This document shows, one piece after another, positions 10,092 to 23,171 of a DNA stretch of 27,293 bases (the stretch's first letter is position 1; the number at the start of each line of letters is the position of its first letter). The notes under the pieces were generated by a model. The model made no database searches, had not been told where the DNA came from, and was given only the letters and a program-made list of their open reading frames with translations. The translations under genes were made by a program, and so were the position numbers. Source of the stretch: a virus; the IMG/VR virus record IMGVR_UViG_3300006841_000019, positions 1-27,293 of that record. The stretch is one strand, 5' to 3'.

Positions 10092-10135
10092 TAGCAGTAC
10101 CTGTTCCTTGGATCGGCTTTGGCCTAATCGTTACA

Positions 10136-10234
10136 TCACCGTTTGGTTTTTGCATTCTTTTTCTTTCTTGCGGCAGCAGCAGCCTTTTTACCTTTAGGGG
10201 TATAAGGATACTTCTTTCCTTTAACGATAGGCAT
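10136..10234 (-). CDS. Very small Lys/Ala-rich basic peptide (32 aa)
   Basis: The ATG at 10234 opens 32 codons ending in TGA at 10136. The product begins MPIVKGKKYPYTPKGKKA, continues with an Ala run and ends RKKKNAKTKR, so about 40 percent of residues are Lys or Arg. Short peptides with the opening MPxVxGKKYPYTxxGxxAA are recurrent in aquatic phage structural modules, which supports this being a real gene. Its charge suggests binding to packaged DNA or to acidic capsid or scaffold surfaces; that is inference. No convincing Shine-Dalgarno sequence is visible in the 12 bases before the ATG, so it may depend on the preceding hairpin or on coupling. Confidence 0.7.
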   Translation of the reverse strand: MPIVKGKKYPYTPKGKKAAAAARKKKNAKTKR

Positions 10235-10259
10235 GATTGAAATGATAGCAGAGGATAAT

Positions 10260-10296
10260 GGAGGGACCGGGGAAAGGGGGAAAACCCGGCCCCTCC
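10260..10296 (-). terminator. Strong stem-loop after the major capsid gene
   Basis: On the minus strand the arms GGAGGGGCCGGG (10296-10285) and CCCGGTCCCTCC (10271-10260) pair over 12 positions with one G-U wobble and a 13-base loop. The same arms on the plus strand would have an A-C mismatch, so the structure favours minus-strand RNA. It lies 21 bases beyond the capsid stop codon. No T-run follows, so it is not a classical intrinsic terminator. It may be a partial terminator of the U-poor kind described for actinobacteria, or a 3' stabiliser or processing site for the capsid mRNA. Confidence 0.55.
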
Positions 10297-10317
10297 ACGC
10301 CTCTATGGCTTTAACTA

Positions 10318-11265
10318 TTAGTTATCGCCAATAGTAGAAGCTGCTTCCACACGGACCATGCATTCTTCACGGAAGATGCCGTAGCCAACAAGGTGGTACC
10401 AGCCAATTGGGTTGAACCGACGCAGAGTATCAGTCACAGGACCAACAACAATGCTTGGATCAGAACCAAATCCGGGGGCACGAGAGAACGCTTTTGCGAG
10501 CGCTTGACGGCCACAGATAAGGGTTTGGTAAACATCGACATTGCTTGTGCCACCGTCGGCAATTAAACCGGCACGTGGGTTTTCGATGTATTCGATGCCA
10601 TTGAATGTACCAATGGAACCAGCACGAACCGGTCCACCTTCTTGGTACAGTTGATACTGGATAACATCAGTAACCGCTGTATCTCCACGAAGGTCGTAGG
10701 AAACGTCAGGGTGAATGATCGCCATGTAGTTTCCATTTTCCCAACCGGGAGCGTTGGCAGTCCGCAACTTAGCTACGGCTTGCCTGCCTAACGCAGCAGT
10801 GTAGTTATCAGTAGCTGTGATTGCGCCACGGCTTGTTTGGCCCGAATAGATAATTTGGTCAGTGTCGGTGCTGCCATTGGCAACATTTGACACAATTTTA
10901 TCTAACGAGTCAGCCATGTTGTAACCAACAATGTTGGCTGCATCAGAGTCAACATTGAGGAATGAAGTTCCACGCACCAAAGCAGTTGAGATAACAGCAT
11001 TACCGTACTCAGCAAGAGTTACAGTCACTGCGCTATCAGTCAAAGCAACAGCAGTCACATCTGTAGCTTCAGTGAGAGCCGTAGTTGCCTGCGCCATGTC
11101 AGCGTAGAACGTAAATTGAACGCCAGAACCGTTATGGCTCTGAGCGGTGGACCTGACATCAGCGACCATTTCGAAAAGAGGCTGCGAACGTAAAGCAAAG
11201 TACGCAACCTGATCGAACGCCGTTTTTACCTGATCGTCAAGTGTGGTGGTAGTTGTATATGCCAC
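10318..11265 (-). CDS. Major capsid protein, N4-gp56-like (315 aa)
   Basis: The protein builds the head shell. The N-terminus TTTTTLDDQVKTAFDQVAYFALRSQPLFEMVADVRST, the strand GVQFTFYADMAQATTALTEATDV and the stretch VTVTLAEYGNAVISTALVRGTS, leading into DKIVSNVANG, follow the pattern of N4-gp56 family capsid proteins, which have the HK97 fold. The middle (YMAIIHPDVSYDLRGD, about 177-192) and the C-terminus (RRFNPIGWYHLVGYGIFREECMVRVE) also fit, as does the length of about 300-350 aa. The start is GTG 11265 with AGGA 6 bases upstream. That ribosome site is inside a hairpin (see 11268-11290). The gene directly follows the scaffold-like gene, as expected. No protease was seen, so maturation cleavage is uncertain. 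Confidence 0.88.
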   Translation of the reverse strand: MAYTTTTTLDDQVKTAFDQVAYFALRSQPLFEMVADVRSTAQSHNGSGVQFTFYADMAQATTALTEATDVTAVALTDSAVTVTLAEYGNAVISTALVRGTSFLNVDSDAANIVGYNMADSLDKIVSNVANGSTDTDQIIYSGQTSRGAITATDNYTAALGRQAVAKLRTANAPGWENGNYMAIIHPDVSYDLRGDTAVTDVIQYQLYQEGGPVRAGSIGTFNGIEYIENPRAGLIADGGTSNVDVYQTLICGRQALAKAFSRAPGFGSDPSIVVGPVTDTLRRFNPIGWYHLVGYGIFREECMVRVEAASTIGDN

Positions 11266-11267
11266 TT

Positions 11268-11290
11268 GAAATCCTAATTGTTAGGACTCC
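11268..11290 (-). promoter_or_regulatory. Hairpin overlapping the capsid-gene ribosome binding site
   Basis: On the minus strand GGAGTCCTAA (11290-11281) pairs with TTAGGATTTC (11277-11268) across a CAA loop. This gives ten base pairs, two of them G-U, and the inner six are perfect Watson-Crick pairs. The 3' arm contains the AGGA Shine-Dalgarno sequence of the capsid GTG start 2 bases beyond the stem. Folding would hide the site, and ribosomes finishing the scaffold gene 14 bases upstream could open it. Confidence 0.6.
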
Positions 11291-11304
11291 AACGAGTTAA
11301 TGAC

Positions 11305-11784
11305 TTAGGCTGTTGCCCCCCACAAGACACCTTCGCTCTCCATTAAAGCACGCAATTCATCTTGATTAGTTGTTGCTTTAATCCGAGCTTCAAGATCAGC
11401 TTGTGACACTGGATCTCCGCCTTCACCAGCATTTTGGATACGTTGTTCGGCTTGCATCGTGCTTTCCAATCTCATATCAGGTTGAGAAGAAGGAGCATTT
11501 TCTCCTAAAAACCCTGCGGCTATAGCTTCCTGACGGATAGCTTCAGCGTCGAGTTCTCCTTCGTAACCTTTTACGAAATATTTAACACGAGTATCAGCAA
11601 GATCAAGTCCTGCTGACCGAAATGTATCCTGACGTTCATAACTAGAAGCTCGTTCTTCGGCGGCAGAAGCTCTATCCTCTGCTTCCCTCAAACGATTTTC
11701 TAAATCACGTCGCCAGTTGGGCTTCGATTCAGATGTACTGGCAGCACCGCCGTCACTGTTCCCAGTGGAGTCGGAATCTGTCAT
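11305..11784 (-). CDS. Capsid scaffolding-like protein (159 aa)
   Basis: Identification rests on position and composition: it immediately precedes the major capsid gene, is acidic, and has a long charged coiled coil at about residues 24-52 (WRRDLENRLREAEDR, then ASAAEERASSYER). The first 20 residues are Ser/Gly/Asp-rich and disordered. A second helical segment with VSQADLEARIKATTNQDELRALMESEGV closes the protein, and such a short C-terminal helical tail is where many scaffolds contact the capsid protein. Scaffolds direct shell assembly and are later lost. The ATG at 11784 has GGTGAG 6 bases upstream and is preceded by about 100 non-coding bases, the larger of the two gaps that break tight coupling. 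No protease domain is seen. Confidence 0.7.
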   Translation of the reverse strand: MTDSDSTGNSDGGAASTSESKPNWRRDLENRLREAEDRASAAEERASSYERQDTFRSAGLDLADTRVKYFVKGYEGELDAEAIRQEAIAAGFLGENAPSSQPDMRLESTMQAEQRIQNAGEGGDPVSQADLEARIKATTNQDELRALMESEGVLWGATA

Positions 11785-14998: not shown

Positions 14999-16365
14999 CA
15001 GATTGTTATTCCCATCACCTTCGCCAAGGTGTTAGCTCTACTCAAATTATTACTAGCCGCAACTTCGTCAGCAAACTCACCCTCGATGCGTTCCCCGAAC
15101 ATGGTTTGCAACTCTGTTTGAGTAACATTTTTGCGACCCATTGTTTCCCTTTGAATCTCATCAGTCCACTTTGCAACGAGGTTACGGAACCTCGGATCGT
15201 CACCACTCTTACCTGTCAAGGAAGCCATAACTTTGCTAGCCACAGCATTCCCATAAGACGAACCGATAGACACTACCGCTCCAGCATTTTTAGCAAGCTG
15301 AAACAATTCATCTGAAATGTTTTGAACCTCTTCAGGATTCCAAACTTCAGGTATGTATTCATCACCTAATCCAGTGAACCCACCTTCAGTAATATTTGCC
15401 ATACTTTGTGCATACGACTGTTGCTGAATCAAAGCCCTACGAACATTCTCATCTGCATAGATGGCATCCGGGTTAGTGAACATTACGTCACCGATAGCGG
15501 AATACATGAACGAAGTATTACCCGTACCTAAAGCTAAACCTTCAGCGATACGCTTTTGATTCTCTGGTGTTTGAGCCAAATAGACTTCGTAAGCATTGGT
15601 GTAGGTAAACGGGACATCTTCGATAAGAGCCGGGGTGAAAGACATACCTGCTTCAGGATCGTCAGTCCACCGAAGAGACATATAGTCCTCACCCATAACA
15701 GATTTCATCATCGGTGACTCGGGGCGAGCTTCAAATACTTCAAGATCTTGGATACCCATTTGTCCCGTGACTGGAGCCAAGTCATATTGGCCTCGATCTA
15801 ATGCTCCTTCTGGTTCACCGAACTCAACGGGGGTCCACGCAGCCCAGTTCTCTGGGTCAATCTGAGCTTGGATGTATGTGTCGGGGACCAGTGAACGGCC
15901 AGAACCAGCAGGATCAGGGATACGTTCAAGAGAAGTGGCTTGTTCTCCAGTACGTTCCGGTAAAGGGACGACGTTGCCTTCAGCATCTCGTGGAATGTCT
16001 TGGGGAGCTACCCCTTGTTCTTCATATTCCTCTGTGATTTCTTCTACTTCGAGAGGGGTAAGCCCTTCTTCTCCCTCTCCCTCTTCTTCGTCTTCTTCTA
16101 ATGTTATGGCTGATGGGCTCATCCAATCAGGTAAAAGACTTTTAGATTTCTTGTCTGGGTCTTGTTCAACTAACTCGTAATCCCAAGCGTTCTTAAGCCA
16201 CTCCCATATACCCGAATCATCTTTTACAGCTTCGGCAATAGCTATCTGACCTTCAGCTTCAGTTATTTTTCCTTCAGCTTGTAACCGAAAAATTTCAGCG
16301 ACCGCATCAAAAAACGAAAGCACGCCTTCTTCCAAGAAATCGGGAATCCACCTGTTGCCTGCCAT
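14998..16365 (-). CDS. Putative internal virion protein, acidic (455 aa)
   Basis: No domain is recognised. Visible parts are a helical N-terminus (FFDAVAEIFRLQAEGKITEAEGQ) and a strongly acidic linker at about 89-116 (EEDEEEGEGEEG). A middle region rich in Pro and Asp follows, then a helical C-terminus (ISDELFQLAKNAGAVVSIGSSYGNAVASKVMASL). The stretch LAQTPENQKRIAEGLALGTG and the C-terminal region are predicted soluble, with no signal or membrane segment. It is coupled to the giant upstream gene by TAATG and to the transglycosylase-domain gene by TGATG, so the products are probably made in similar amounts. This supports, but does not prove, a role in the same internal or ejected complex. Confidence 0.5.
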   Translation of the reverse strand: MAGNRWIPDFLEEGVLSFFDAVAEIFRLQAEGKITEAEGQIAIAEAVKDDSGIWEWLKNAWDYELVEQDPDKKSKSLLPDWMSPSAITLEEDEEEGEGEEGLTPLEVEEITEEYEEQGVAPQDIPRDAEGNVVPLPERTGEQATSLERIPDPAGSGRSLVPDTYIQAQIDPENWAAWTPVEFGEPEGALDRGQYDLAPVTGQMGIQDLEVFEARPESPMMKSVMGEDYMSLRWTDDPEAGMSFTPALIEDVPFTYTNAYEVYLAQTPENQKRIAEGLALGTGNTSFMYSAIGDVMFTNPDAIYADENVRRALIQQQSYAQSMANITEGGFTGLGDEYIPEVWNPEEVQNISDELFQLAKNAGAVVSIGSSYGNAVASKVMASLTGKSGDDPRFRNLVAKWTDEIQRETMGRKNVTQTELQTMFGERIEGEFADEVAASNNLSRANTLAKVMGITI

Positions 16366-19300
16366 TACGCCGCTACCTCATATTCGGTCATTAAACCGGT
16401 AGGCAAATTACCTACAGAAATTGAAAGCATGTTACTAAAATACCTGTCATAGATTGGACCGAAGTTGGGGTAACTTAATACTTCCAACAAGAAAACGTCC
16501 CACTCTTGACGAATGTCTTGGTTACCAGAATAACTCATCCGCAAATAGTTACGGTTGTTAGTGCCCTCAGCACGTTTCACCATCTTCAAAGCAAGCTGGT
16601 CATGCTTACCAACAAACATTGCGATCTGGGGAATCTCAGGCCGATACGCAAACTCTTCTAAAGAAATAAACTCTCGTAAACCGGCAAGAACTTCTTTTTG
16701 TACTTGTGGTTGACTGAAAGTATTGAACTCTTCTAACCAGAAAGAATTTTCTCTCCCAAGATCTTCAATAAATTTGCGCCGATCTTTCCACAAATCAAAG
16801 TTTGAGTTAGCTAAAAGACTTGATGAGCCCCCACCCATTGCACGGTTACGAAGTTCGTCGTCCATCGAGTTTCGGAAGACACGCCATTCTCTCCAACCCA
16901 TACTGACAGACGCATCGGTAAGAATGCCTGCCGGATTCATGTAATCTCGACGGCCATCTCGTGCTTCGAGTTCTGCAACTGCACGGTTGTAATTAAATTG
17001 GACATCAAGTGCACCGTATTCGCCTCGGACTAGTGGAGCTAGTTGAGGGTTGTTTTCCATGAAGTCTTGATGTTCTTTATATTTTTGGTGGCCTTCTAAT
17101 GTGCCTGCTCTAACTCCTTGGGCCATTGTTGTGCGTGCCGTGAAGGCCCATAGATCTGGATGATTTTCGAGAAGCCATGCGGTTGCCACATCAGGGCCAT
17201 GTTCTTCTTGTACTTTCCAATACTCGTTGATGATTCCCCAATATGGTGATTGTTGACGGAACGAAACTGGGACGGCTATTGAACGAAGCATCCTTATACC
17301 AAAGATTGCTTGTGTACGCCGATAAACCTCTTCTTCGAATGCAGCTAACTCTGTCGCATTTTGTGGAAGTTCTCGTCCTTCTTCAACGTATTGGGTAATC
17401 ATGTCTTGGGTTACTCTGGCTGCGGTTTGTGCTTTACCGGCATCAGTCATACCAGTAGCTTTAGCTCCATTACGAATCCAAGACGGAGTATGCGAATTAA
17501 TGAATCGTGTGTATATCTCTTCGCCTTCTACGAATCCGTAAGGAAGCATCCAATCAAGAGATTCGTCTAGCTGTGGGTTGCTTACAATCAATTCGGAAAC
17601 GGAGAATGAAACAAGTGGACCGAAACCGGGAAGAGCGCCGATCATGGAAGCAGATTCAAGGTTAAGGTTGATCTCTTCGTTCGCTAACTGTGAAAGTTTC
17701 CCGAAGAGTTTTATGTCTCCAATGTTGGAGTCAAAGAATCCGGGCATTGGCATAACAATGCGAGGGTTACCATCTTCGTCTTCGCCAGTGACAAGGTTCC
17801 ATGCTCGTAAAGCACGGGCAATGAACACAGGGTTTTCGCCTGCTAGCCCCATCCATCGTGTCGCTACTTCTTGCCATGCTCCGAGGAACGGGAAAAGTTC
17901 TGTAACTATTTCTTCAAACCGTGTCCGGTCAGCAAGTTCATACAAAATCTTTTTAGTTTCATCTAAAGCGTAGCGGCGAGAGCGTGTAGCCATTTCTTCT
18001 AGGGCGTTACCTGCTTCGGGAATTGTGTACGATCCGTCGCTATTCCGGTACCGTTGCATCTCGATTGCCATTTGGCGTTCGTATGCTGCTTCGAACATTG
18101 TTCCACGTGAAACAACATTTTCAACTTCTGTCAGGTTTTCAAACCATGTGTCAGTTACGTGACGAATAATTTCTTTGGCTTGTTTAATTTGTGTCCCAGT
18201 TTTGAGTCCATCCAAATATGAGGAGTCATTAACTGTTTTACCAAAATCGATGAGGGGTGCAAGACGATCAGTGAAGTCAGTTCGATTGATTCCTCGTAGA
18301 TCGTCGGCATCGATTTGTTTTCCGATTCCTCGGATTAACTCAATGAATTTGAGTTGGAGTACATCTTTTGCCGCATTGGAAACTGCGCTACTTCCCTCCA
18401 AGTAAACTGCGTCATCCAACCTATTTATGACTGCATAGTAAACAGCTTGATCGACAACGGTTCCTGTCGGGATATTTCGTATATCTCCTGTGTAAGCGAC
18501 TTCGTTAAGAATTTCTTTTGATCTTGCTGCTAGCGAATCGACAATAGGTTTTATGTCCCTGTTCCATGTAATAAGTTCACCTCTGGCAAGTCGTTCTCGG
18601 ACACCTGCGAACTCAGGTAAGTCCGGTACAAGACTGTTCGCTTCGTATCGTGTACGGCGAATCAGTTCCATTCGTGCTTCTGGGCTTCGCCACTCATCAG
18701 GCAAACTATCCAGAACAGGTCGCCCTTCAGTACTCAACCATTCATAGATTTCGTCATCTGTTTTGCCGAGCCATTGTTGCCGCCAGAAATCTCTTTGGAC
18801 TGACTGACCCGGCATCCCCGGACTACTCGCATGATTTTGGATGAATGCGTCGTAAGCTCGCACGAAGGCTTCTGCTTCGTAAGGATCTGCAATGTTGTAT
18901 TGGTGAGATTCTTCCCACGCTTCAGTCCGCCGCATTTGTGCATTTGTGTCAGACCAGATTTGGCGTTTCGTGGGATTAGCACTATTGAGACGTTCGTTTA
19001 CTGCTCTGATCTGTGGGTTGTCGCCCCACGGGTTAGGCATAGCGTTCGATCCGAGCATCGACTGGCCGTACCCTATGTCTCCTAAGAGTTCGGCTGCTTC
19101 ATCAAATTTGCCTGCAATCTCTGGGTGTTCTTTCCGAAAGTTTTCAACCACCATTTTTTGGTAGCTGGTTACTCCTTCGGAACGAGCGGCCAATAGTTTC
19201 GCTGCTTCTCGTCTGTCTTTCTTTGCTTGGGCGAGAACTTCGGCCAGTGTCATATCTTCACCGAGTTTGTTTATTTCTTCAGGAGTTAGCAAATCAAGTT

Positions 19301-22300
19301 CGAGAACTGACCTGTCGTCGAGTCCTTCTAGTAATGCACGTTCAGCTTGTTCTAGTTCATCAATCATGTGTTTGGCATCAAGAAGTAACGCTTCGCCGTA
19401 TCCTGTAGCTACTTTACGTCGAGCTAAAAGAACTTGGCTTTTGCGTGCATGTCGCCCATACATTGCTCCTGATGCTGCTGCGCCTGCTGGTCCAGCGAAG
19501 AAAAGGCCGAGTCCAGACATGAATACTGTGCGACGTTTTTGTCTACCTGCTGCGTATTCTTCTCTGATGGTTTCATCCATCAAACCTTCATAGTTTGTTT
19601 CTACTATCCCTCTGTCATAACGCTTGTTGTATTCCTGAACTTTCTCTGTAAAAGTAAGCCCTACTGCATCTTCGCCTAATACTTCATCAACTTTGCCGAG
19701 AACAATTCCTTGAACGTCAGTACCGGCACGCTCCAACCAACGAGCCCGAAGCCTGTCAAGCCTCTGCCCCATACCGGCCATAGAGTTTGCTACTCCGAGA
19801 TGAGCGAAGTTACGCAACATGGAGTCAAAATTGACAACCGTTTGCCAACGTGGAGTTAAAAGAACTCCTCGTTTCCAAGCAGTACTTATCATTCGTCGTG
19901 CTGCTTGCACTTTGGCACGTTCGGGGGCTATGTTGATTTGTTTGGGGCCATCTGGTGTGGGAATGGTTTTCATGTCGCCCTCAACCATTTTGACGTAACG
20001 ATGTATAAGGTCGTAGCGTGGCACCAACGAGGCTTTACGCATTTGGCTTGGGCTGATTGGGATACGCCGCTTAATTGTTTCGCCTCTGCTTTGTTCCCAA
20101 ATAACTTCCGTGAAGTCCACGTTGCCAAAGGACCGTTGTGTTTCGTCGGCGGCTTTATTCAGAATTTCTTTTGCTTCAATGATTTGGCCGTTAAGAATTT
20201 GCCGTAAGTCATCTGCGCCTAAGGTAACTTCAACGCCGTCGTCAAGTATTGGTCCTAACTGTTCAATGATTGTGTCGTTGATTCTTTTGACAACATCATC
20301 AAAGTGTGCTGCGAGAGCATTACGGTCGTTGGATTTGTTGAGAAACTCTATGAGTACATCGTCGGCATTAAGACCAGCAGCTTCCAAAATATTTCTTTGG
20401 GCGTAAGGAACTTCTGTTGCTAGTGCCGCCGGGATGCGTTCCACATCTCGAAGCATTCGTTCAACTTGTATATAAGCAGCGCTGGGTTGTTGTAGATCAA
20501 TAATGTTTTGAGCAACTTTATCGACAATCATTTGGACAGCGTTCGTACCCCGAACATTTCGATAGGTCCCAGATTTTTCGAAGAAAGTTTTGGCTTTGTA
20601 GCCAAGTCTGTTGCTTGGACCTAGATAGGGGAGTTGTGCATCTGGAAGAGTGGGTACTTGGTGTGCGTCGAGAATTTCGTTTGCTGCTGCTTTAACAACA
20701 TTATTGCCAACTTCAGTAGCGTATTTATCTAAGACTGTGGGCGTCCCGAATCCGTTGGGGACATCTTTAATAAGTGTTTCTACGATATTGTTTTTAAGGG
20801 AAAGAATTGCGTTCCACGGTGTATTCTTTAAATCCCCGAGGTCTTTCCACATTTGGTTAAACTCGGGTGTCCCCATTTCGGGAGTGCGGAACGATGGGGT
20901 ATCTATTTGCCCCAAAAGGTTAGCGACCCCGGTTTCGCCTTGATTTAAAGCGTCAGCGACAATTTCCATAACGTCGTCTACAAGTTGAGGATTCGAATTA
21001 GCTAACGCCGCTCTTGCGCTTTCAAGTTCTATAACTCGACGACGTATCGCATCAACTTCTTGTAAATCCTCAGCATTTCTACTTCGTTGTTCAAGTTCAA
21101 GAATCTCGTCGGTCATCCTTTGCATCTCATCTACGAGCGCTCGGCCACCGCCAAGGTTGTCTACTTGGAACATGATTGAGGCAAGTAAACTAGCTTGCCG
21201 TTCCAATGCCGGGAAGCCACCAGTACCAGCTAAAGCAACCTTTATTAGATTGTCGAACGGTAACCAACTCTGATTAGTAACTGGTCCGTCGCCTATGACT
21301 TTGGCAATAGTTCGACCCCAGTTATACATGTCTTCTGCTGGTCGATCCCAGCCTTTGCCAAGGCGACCTTGTTGACCTGCGTCGATAAATGCTTTCCCGA
21401 ACTCATCTTCAAATGTTGTCGGACCTGCGACTTTGGGACTACTGGCTTTTCCTTCTGTTTCAAGTATCCAATCAATTAATTTGGCTTGATGCGCCGGGTC
21501 TTGCAAACTAGGTTCTCTAAGGGTTGACCCTTCACGCCTTTTAGGGAATTTAGCCTCGTCGTCCTTATGGTTTTTGCCTGTGGTCTTCTCTGTATTTCTA
21601 ACCTCGGCCCACAGTTCTTCTGGAGTTTTAGCTTCTAATTCCAAACGTCGAGAAGCTGCGGAGTCGGTAACAACACCGGTACGAGCAGCCCTAGTGTCTA
21701 TCACACGAAACTTATCTTTAGGGATTCTTATAAACTTGTCTGGATTATGTGGTCCTTCGAAGGCAACACGATATTCAGAAGTGAAACGAGTATCTTTAAT
21801 CGCACCAGCGTCTTCAACAACCTGAGCCATTACAGAAGCATCAATTTCAAAAATAACCCCATCCCCTGTTGATGGACCATAAAGTGAGCTTTCTGTTCTT
21901 TTGGCATAACCAATAGCAGCGTTTATGTCAGTACCAAACGAAATTCCTGATTGCCCCGGTACAGCTTCTCTAGCATAGAAAATAAGATCACCAGTTTCAG
22001 GATCAATATATGTACCCAAATTGGCAGAATCCGCATGACGTGAACCGTGGTAAAGAACTTCATCCGCAATAGGTCCACCCCCTAATTCCTGTACCTGTTT
22101 ACGAACTAAACCTTGCTGTGGCCCAAAAGTTTCTCCAATATCAAGATATACAACTGGATGAACTAAACGATTATCTGGAGCTAAAGCATCAGGATCTTCA
22201 GCCCTTTTAGCTCGAACTTCTTCGGCTATGTTCCAGATCTCTGCACGGAACTTGTCGAACCCTGCACTATTAATTACTTCATCTACGGTGGGTGCGACTG

Positions 22301-23171
22301 TTTCATTAAGGAATGTGGGTCGGTAACTCCAGTTTTCCCAGAATGCTTCGTCACGTAAACGTGGCTGGCCTTTACGGTTCGGTCTTACGTCACGAAACTC
22401 GAATGGTGCGAGACTTGTTTGCACCATTCTTGGGTCATAAACACCGGTCGCATTATAAGTTTCTTTGGCTCGTCGCATTGCATACGACCAACGTGCTGCA
22501 CGAGCAGTCAAATAGAGAGGGTCAAGCCCAATGTTCAACGCAAAGTCAATCATGCCCGACGTTGCGAAATACCAGTCAGTTCCCTTGAACTCTTCAAGAG
22601 CTTTTGGATCCATGATGTCTACATGGAAAATAGATAACGCTAACGCTTGGCCTGCGCTTCGGCTTTGTGTCACATCCCACGCTTGTTGGTATGTACTCCA
22701 GTTGTAGATTTTACTGTCACCCAAACCGGGAATGAGTTGTTCGCCAAGGTTGCCGAATCTCTCCAGAATGTTTGTATCTTCGCCACCTATTTCTGACGCA
22801 ACCATTCGTTCGACTGTGGCAAGTGTTCCGATTGGGCGGTCAATAAAGTTTTTGTAGGTGAACTGCATTGACTCCATGAACGGAGTCCAAAGAAGAGTGC
22901 TGAATGGGTCACGTACAAAACCGGGTAATGCGCCTGCTGGTGCACCGAAAACCCCTTCCGGCCCCATTAATGCACTTGCAACATTTTTTTCCCCGGTCCC
23001 AGTTTCGGACTGCTTCCCCATAATGTTGTCTTTGAAAGACTCAATGAGAGCATCTATTGGGTTAATGTTTTTTGCTGTGTGAACTGCTGCGTCTATAACA
23101 AAGTCGGCGGCTTGTGCTCCAAGATCAAAAGGAGCATCGACTATTTTGTCGAGCCGTTCGCTGAAACTCAT
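16365..23171 (-). CDS. Giant polyvalent-type virion protein with ADP-ribosyltransferase-like domain (2268 aa)
   Basis: This gene covers a quarter of the window. Residues about 365-495 (nt 21687-22079) read as an ADP-ribosyltransferase fold: VLYHGSRHA (His375), then GISFGTDINAAIGYAKR (410-426, Ser411 and Tyr422), GVIFEID (438-444), TSEYRVAFEGP (464-474, Glu466) and IRIPKDKFRVID. The His-Tyr-Glu spacing fits the PARP-like H-Y-E class. Other parts are a coiled coil (677-725), a basic segment WKRGVLLTPRWQ (1099-1110), a Gly/Ala-rich hydrophobic stretch (1216-1239) after KRR, and a helical module at about 1680-1795 with ELFPFLGAWQEVATRW and GENPVFIARAL. That module resembles segments I recall from other giant phage proteins. 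It starts at ATG 23171 (ATGA overlap). Family size, position after the portal and lack of a signal peptide suggest a packaged, ejected protein that may modify host targets; that is inference. Confidence 0.65.
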   Translation of the reverse strand: MSFSERLDKIVDAPFDLGAQAADFVIDAAVHTAKNINPIDALIESFKDNIMGKQSETGTGEKNVASALMGPEGVFGAPAGALPGFVRDPFSTLLWTPFMESMQFTYKNFIDRPIGTLATVERMVASEIGGEDTNILERFGNLGEQLIPGLGDSKIYNWSTYQQAWDVTQSRSAGQALALSIFHVDIMDPKALEEFKGTDWYFATSGMIDFALNIGLDPLYLTARAARWSYAMRRAKETYNATGVYDPRMVQTSLAPFEFRDVRPNRKGQPRLRDEAFWENWSYRPTFLNETVAPTVDEVINSAGFDKFRAEIWNIAEEVRAKRAEDPDALAPDNRLVHPVVYLDIGETFGPQQGLVRKQVQELGGGPIADEVLYHGSRHADSANLGTYIDPETGDLIFYAREAVPGQSGISFGTDINAAIGYAKRTESSLYGPSTGDGVIFEIDASVMAQVVEDAGAIKDTRFTSEYRVAFEGPHNPDKFIRIPKDKFRVIDTRAARTGVVTDSAASRRLELEAKTPEELWAEVRNTEKTTGKNHKDDEAKFPKRREGSTLREPSLQDPAHQAKLIDWILETEGKASSPKVAGPTTFEDEFGKAFIDAGQQGRLGKGWDRPAEDMYNWGRTIAKVIGDGPVTNQSWLPFDNLIKVALAGTGGFPALERQASLLASIMFQVDNLGGGRALVDEMQRMTDEILELEQRSRNAEDLQEVDAIRRRVIELESARAALANSNPQLVDDVMEIVADALNQGETGVANLLGQIDTPSFRTPEMGTPEFNQMWKDLGDLKNTPWNAILSLKNNIVETLIKDVPNGFGTPTVLDKYATEVGNNVVKAAANEILDAHQVPTLPDAQLPYLGPSNRLGYKAKTFFEKSGTYRNVRGTNAVQMIVDKVAQNIIDLQQPSAAYIQVERMLRDVERIPAALATEVPYAQRNILEAAGLNADDVLIEFLNKSNDRNALAAHFDDVVKRINDTIIEQLGPILDDGVEVTLGADDLRQILNGQIIEAKEILNKAADETQRSFGNVDFTEVIWEQSRGETIKRRIPISPSQMRKASLVPRYDLIHRYVKMVEGDMKTIPTPDGPKQINIAPERAKVQAARRMISTAWKRGVLLTPRWQTVVNFDSMLRNFAHLGVANSMAGMGQRLDRLRARWLERAGTDVQGIVLGKVDEVLGEDAVGLTFTEKVQEYNKRYDRGIVETNYEGLMDETIREEYAAGRQKRRTVFMSGLGLFFAGPAGAAASGAMYGRHARKSQVLLARRKVATGYGEALLLDAKHMIDELEQAERALLEGLDDRSVLELDLLTPEEINKLGEDMTLAEVLAQAKKDRREAAKLLAARSEGVTSYQKMVVENFRKEHPEIAGKFDEAAELLGDIGYGQSMLGSNAMPNPWGDNPQIRAVNERLNSANPTKRQIWSDTNAQMRRTEAWEESHQYNIADPYEAEAFVRAYDAFIQNHASSPGMPGQSVQRDFWRQQWLGKTDDEIYEWLSTEGRPVLDSLPDEWRSPEARMELIRRTRYEANSLVPDLPEFAGVRERLARGELITWNRDIKPIVDSLAARSKEILNEVAYTGDIRNIPTGTVVDQAVYYAVINRLDDAVYLEGSSAVSNAAKDVLQLKFIELIRGIGKQIDADDLRGINRTDFTDRLAPLIDFGKTVNDSSYLDGLKTGTQIKQAKEIIRHVTDTWFENLTEVENVVSRGTMFEAAYERQMAIEMQRYRNSDGSYTIPEAGNALEEMATRSRRYALDETKKILYELADRTRFEEIVTELFPFLGAWQEVATRWMGLAGENPVFIARALRAWNLVTGEDEDGNPRIVMPMPGFFDSNIGDIKLFGKLSQLANEEINLNLESASMIGALPGFGPLVSFSVSELIVSNPQLDESLDWMLPYGFVEGEEIYTRFINSHTPSWIRNGAKATGMTDAGKAQTAARVTQDMITQYVEEGRELPQNATELAAFEEEVYRRTQAIFGIRMLRSIAVPVSFRQQSPYWGIINEYWKVQEEHGPDVATAWLLENHPDLWAFTARTTMAQGVRAGTLEGHQKYKEHQDFMENNPQLAPLVRGEYGALDVQFNYNRAVAELEARDGRRDYMNPAGILTDASVSMGWREWRVFRNSMDDELRNRAMGGGSSSLLANSNFDLWKDRRKFIEDLGRENSFWLEEFNTFSQPQVQKEVLAGLREFISLEEFAYRPEIPQIAMFVGKHDQLALKMVKRAEGTNNRNYLRMSYSGNQDIRQEWDVFLLEVLSYPNFGPIYDRYFSNMLSISVGNLPTGLMTEYEVAA

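Follow-up and report, generated by a model that had tools for sequence, protein, structure and literature searches.

In this marine tailed phage, the leader of the major capsid protein gene folds into a hairpin that masks the Shine-Dalgarno (SD) sequence of this gene, as is evident from its sequence, its folding, and its conservation. The reading that we favour, with a probability of about 65%, is that this hairpin constitutes an RNA-level translational gate on capsid synthesis, with an effect on expression that we infer from the masked site. As dozens of related phages retain the fold despite changes in its sequence, the hairpin is probably a real control point for the synthesis of the capsid protein.

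The capsid leader and its genomic context

The window, which denotes the whole stretch of DNA that was analysed, is a virus record of 27.3 kb with its main genes on the minus strand. The features of the capsid region are the following:

10318..11265, minus strand: major capsid protein gene with GTG start (phrog_1357, E 7e-61; Pfam Phage_capsid_3)
11305..11784, minus strand: probable scaffolding protein gene (phrog_7813)
11293..11304, minus strand: spacer of 12 nt between the scaffold stop and the stem
11266..11292, minus strand: stem-loop over the capsid-gene SD, 12 bp with a CAA loop, supported by fold, conservation, and covariation
11280..11281, minus strand: AC at the hairpin tip, the A being the last base of the 5' arm and the C the first base of the CAA loop
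11272..11275, minus strand: SD sequence AGGA in the 3' arm, 6 nt before the GTG

The gene upstream of the capsid gene had been named as the scaffold gene in the preliminary description, which is very probably right because it shares phrog_7813 with a gene of Streptomyces phage Dennebes that is annotated as 'scaffolding protein'. The Kumquat copy of the phrog_7813 gene weakly matches two head-scaffolding families (E 0.002-0.005). Elsewhere on the minus strand of the window, positions 16365-23171 encode a protein of 2268 aa with a partial match to phrog_10618, a phage family of unknown function, and without a Pfam match.

The hairpin is built from the minus-strand arms UUGGAGUCCUAA and UUAGGAUUUCAA around the loop CAA (11292..11266), and contains 12 pairs of which two are G-U. 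Its 3' end is the base directly before the GTG (11265-11263), so that, as in SD-sequestering hairpins, the SD is paired in a stable stem that adjoins the start codon. Sequence and fold thus bear out the hairpin of the preliminary description on the minus strand, where it is part of the minimum-energy structure, while it is not the minimum-energy fold of the plus strand. The stem had been described as having 10 bp with the inner six perfect, which is right as far as it goes, but two further U-A pairs extend it to 12 bp. The AGGA had been placed 2 bases from the GTG, a distance that fits the end of the 10-bp stem; the actual spacing is 6 nt, and it ranges from 6 to 10 nt among the AGGA-bearing capsid leaders of set 1. 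The hairpin had been located just past the scaffold stop; the TAA (11307-11305) is 12 nt upstream of the stem.

Folded over 39 nt the hairpin reaches -12.2 kcal/mol with a z of -3.78, and none of 200 shuffled sequences folds as well. With longer windows the z-values are -3.1, -3.0, and -1.4 at 61, 101, and 141 nt, respectively, and the stem is still present in the minimum-energy structure. The stability alone is unremarkable, as 1914 of the 54508 windows of 39 nt on the two strands have a fold of equal or better energy. What is beyond chance is the position and the conservation of the hairpin, not its energy.

Several other roles for the sequence were considered and rejected. An intrinsic terminator is not predicted at 11266-11292, and the stem is followed not by a T run but by GTGGCATATA. 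The GGAG of the 5' arm is not a second SD, given that some relatives carry GGAA or AGAA there with the pairing kept. Pairing of the loop with the start codon, judged by eye, did not track the changes between ATG and GTG. Rfam 15 contains no match for the window at the gathering score, nor for 10092-11330 at E <= 1.

Conservation and covariation in close relatives

IMG/VR was searched with the capsid protein, and out of 107 confirmed relatives 80 were kept, which have 60-92% identity. The window and 79 of these loci (L075 was excluded because it has no start) provide 45 distinct leaders of 45 nt. A stem of the GGAGUCC...AGGAYU type that covers the SD and closely precedes the start codon is found in 44 of them, and the odd leader (L079-L081) has another hairpin with the SD in its loop. 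Considered in the context from -150 to +100, the SD zone has a maximum local pairing of >0.8 in 44 of the 45 leaders.

Covariation was analysed in 43 trimmed leaders with a structure of nine pairs, which are formed to 86.3%, compared to 31-59% if the partners are slid by one to three columns. Changes on both sides are found in 14 cells, while shuffles have 6.6 +/- 2.1 and reach this number once in 500, and the covariation score is 0.221 versus 0.189 +/- 0.011 (2 of 500). The pairing is thus conserved by matching changes, with two of five shuffle measures not exceeded (both-side-changed pairs, 295/500; further pair types, 341/500) and with kinship among the leaders possibly inflating the others. 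RNAalifold alone yields five core pairs and a small covariation term. On the tree of the capsid proteins, the core pair 23/44 changed 12 times between G-C, G-U, and A-U, with a single loss of pairing; the pairs 24/43 and 25/42 are invariant and thus uninformative. The preliminary description had made its proposal depend on the covariation of the two arms in relatives, and it withstands this test in that the stem is kept in 44 of 45 leaders and matching changes are above those in shuffles.

At two stem positions G-U pairs are frequent, being present in 22 and 17 of the 43 leaders, respectively, which speaks for an RNA rather than a DNA structure. It could be imagined that the sequence is a DNA-level inverted repeat, an operator or another protein site, because its core AGTCC...GGACT is a partial palindrome. 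However, G-U widely replaces G-C, the site invariably coincides with the SD and adjoins the start codon, and a differently spelled hairpin covers the SD of Streptomyces phages. We consider this explanation to be very improbable, and a reading as DNA palindrome was rejected on the frequent G-U pairs.

The dinucleotide AC at the tip is kept in 41 of 43 loops, a count that is favoured by the columns having been anchored on AC. In these AC-anchored loops the A and the C changed twice each on the tree, whereas the flanking positions changed 11, 14, 19, and 17 times. In a wider count AC is located near the 5' side of the loop in 45 of 52 leaders, and one of the seven misses (L055) has the AC further in. 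In more distant relatives the AC is lost. With the loops anchored on AC, the element resembles coat-protein operators in having a hairpin over a ribosome site whose loop bases are conserved. The conserved AC suggests that some factor recognises the loop, and its constancy fits feedback by a putative bound protein.

Specificity to the capsid gene

For a comparison, the leaders of homologous genes within the same contigs were folded. The 43 distinct capsid leaders have a mean MFE of -10.8 and a mean z of -2.52, and among the 42 with a scorable SD, 32 have it buried. For nine other genes of the same contigs the SD is buried in only 12 of 158 leaders with mean z-values between -0.62 and +0.06. In 46 of 53 sources a covariance model (R1) built from the capsid leaders detects a strong site, which occurs once per genome and is always the capsid leader; its only further hit has E = 2. 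When the window is scanned with R1 without filters, 8.5e-11 is obtained for the capsid site and E = 1.1 for the next best. The model also matches loci outside its training set, namely L206, L208, L210, L211, L212, L258, and L268. Reuse of the motif at other genes was rejected on the single strong site per genome.

A wide distribution of the motif in other phages was rejected as well. An exact-pattern scan of IMG/VR, for which there is no chance expectation, gave 19 stretches, of which 14 are by name contigs that are already part of the capsid-leader set. The remaining five (L082, L083, L085, L087, and L089, with L083 and L085 being the same stretch) have no significant capsid match by tblastn.

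Leaders in the wider capsid family

The cultured Streptomyces phages of the Beephvirinae have 37-39% capsid identity to the window. Their leader hairpin is spelled differently but is found at the same place, with a C-rich 5' arm and a GGAGG SD in the 3' arm, and adjoins the GUG. It is present in all nine annotated Streptomyces records that were folded; as these leaders are G+C-rich, their fold energy alone is not significant. In Streptomyces phage JXY1 (L108, 722-1590), two separate hypothetical proteins are annotated in place of the capsid gene, which is a single frame in the relatives.

The Kumquat-like set consists of 52 distinct leaders of IMG/VR contigs (79 of 80 loci), which have a mean z of -0.38; six of them beat 95% of the shuffles, and many divergent members have a plain leader. 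In the Bacillus phages Pascal and poppyseed the SD is paired in weaker stems, and the folded capsid leaders of Vibrio, Bacteroides, and ct7QV12 are without a convincing SD stem. The 21 distinct leaders of a third set (30 loci) were sorted by eye into ten with a GGAGUCC/GGGGUCC-GGAYU stem, five with an SD-in-loop hairpin, and six with neither. The five SD-in-loop hairpins have z-values of -1.0 to +0.1 and thus no statistical support. In leaders of this kind (L079, L200, L201, L202, L204, L218, and L102), the hairpin is small and extends up to the ATG or its vicinity. The SD-in-loop hairpins of these intermediate relatives hint at a second form of the capsid-leader feature. A universal presence of the hairpin in the capsid family was rejected because many divergent relatives do not have it; the element therefore belongs to a clade and not to the whole capsid family.

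Geometry between scaffold and capsid gene

A ribosome reaches about 9-10 nt past the stop codon. In the 44 stem-bearing leaders, 33-49 nt separate the scaffold stop from the capsid start, and the first base of the 5' arm comes 7-19 nt after the stop (43 of 44 leaders, L057 excluded). Because of this start of the 5' arm a terminating scaffold ribosome would not normally melt the stem. In a termination-coupled pair the stop would overlap the start or be within about 20 nt of it, a threshold that we took from PMC10666635, or translation would enter the hairpin; none of these applies here.

The preliminary description had considered this arrangement to suit a translational coupling of capsid to scaffold synthesis, or else feedback by a bound protein. 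With coupling, ribosomes finishing the scaffold would open the hairpin or reinitiate, and capsid output would track scaffold output. The two genes are indeed adjacent on one strand with the capsid SD masked, and there is a precedent in the genes VII/IX of phage f1, for which PMC12548453 describes a predicted hairpin that blocks the downstream gene. The gap of 33-49 nt and the stem located 7-19 nt beyond the stop do not support coupling, however, if compared with the reach of the ribosome. In the six gene pairs tested in PMC10666635, termination-reinitiation was nearly abolished by a gap of about 20 nt, and in f1 coupling was abolished when the stop was shifted well upstream of the hairpin (PMC12548453). 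Coupling is therefore unlikely, and because both the geometry and the published limits disfavour it, a gate that is independent of scaffold translation is preferred.

A second hairpin downstream of the capsid gene

Another conserved hairpin is found at the other end of the capsid gene:

10260..10296, minus strand: second conserved hairpin just past the capsid stop, with the pyrimidine loop UUUUCCCCCUUUC

Its sequence is GGAGGGGCCGGG-UUUUCCCCCUUUC-CCCGGUCCCUCC (window 10296..10260). The 90 nt past the capsid stop fold with -29 to -42 kcal/mol in all 42 relatives with enough sequence (43 rows). An alignment of 40 relatives shows hardly any variation in the loop, and 3' of it an unchanging CTGCTA and a short reading frame with a basic product. 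The exact core pattern of the second hairpin is present in 60 IMG/VR stretches with one copy per matching locus. It has no T run, and Rfam gave no match to it (10092-11330, E <= 1). At its place a terminator is annotated in Streptomyces phage Abafar, and a term search of PMC11536984, which deals with this phage, did not reveal a mention of hairpin, terminator, or translation. The frame 3' of the second hairpin (about 10136-10234, minus strand) is rich in Lys and Ala, comprises about 32 codons as counted by eye, has no obvious SD, and is kept in the 40 aligned relatives; it is below the ORF cut-off of 80 aa.

Because a second conserved hairpin follows the capsid gene, mRNA processing or stability is a serious rival to the gate. 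The 5' stem and the stronger hairpin after the capsid stop could bracket a long-lived processed message, the masking of the SD being a by-product. The presence of the second hairpin in 42 of 42 relatives, one copy at each matching locus, is in agreement with this. However, stability alone would not require a 5' stem that has the SD at its centre and its closing end at the start codon, as is the case here, and we regard this explanation as improbable.

How the proposed gate might work

According to the gate reading, the UCCU of the 5' arm would pair with the AGGA of the capsid SD immediately upon synthesis of the scaffold-capsid message, and the stem would close up to the GTG. Loading of the 30S subunit on the capsid gene would then be held down until the stem opens. 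As the stem begins just past the reach of a ribosome that ends the scaffold, it would fold independently of scaffold translation. The most likely use would be a conditional control, in which a trans-acting factor recognises the stem together with the AC and keeps it closed if there is too much capsid or scaffold protein, or in which standby ribosomes settle on the spacer and open the stem at a set rate; both the factor and the direction of control are putative. Of the weight given to the gate reading, slightly more than half falls on control by a protein, and the remainder on a fixed brake or on tuning by standby ribosomes. Some points stand against a gate in general. As a phage requires much capsid protein, a masked SD is paradoxical unless the stem opens, and the wider family does not always keep the hairpin (6 of 52 Kumquat-like leaders beat 95% of the shuffles).

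The particular proposal that capsid synthesis is shut off by free capsid or scaffold protein bound to the stem and the AC loop, by which the phage would sense the assembly of its capsid, is rather unlikely. If true, it would be the equivalent, in DNA phages, of the RNA-phage coat operators, located on the capsid gene of tailed phages. The ratio of capsid to scaffold protein helps to decide whether proper procapsids form, and little is understood of how tailed phages set it at the message level. A gene-specific, conserved stem that masks the SD and carries a conserved loop dinucleotide is a concrete and easily tested candidate, and the counterparts in Streptomyces phages are workable in culture.

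Comparison with known systems

In the full-text literature searched, whose coverage excludes most subscription journals, a report of the capsid-leader element was not found. The element belongs to a known kind, the SD-masking control hairpins, and what is unusual is its location on the capsid gene of DNA phages. In the coat operators of the single-stranded RNA phages of the MS2/R17 type, a hairpin covers the replicase start and is bound by the coat protein. These operators share with the hairpin described here that it is short, covers a ribosome site of a phage message, and has conserved loop bases. They differ in acting at the replicase start through a bound coat protein, whereas here the capsid gene of a DNA phage is concerned and the binder is putative. 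The scaffolding protein of phage P22 exerts feedback control after transcription on the scaffold gene. Common to both would be a post-transcriptional control tied to capsid assembly, which is an assumption in our case; unlike in P22, it is the capsid gene that carries the structured site, and the scaffold SD is buried in just 4 of 46 leaders. The f1 genes VII/IX also have a hairpin that is predicted to block downstream initiation, but according to PMC12548453 these genes overlap and translation runs through the hairpin, whereas here translation stops short of it.
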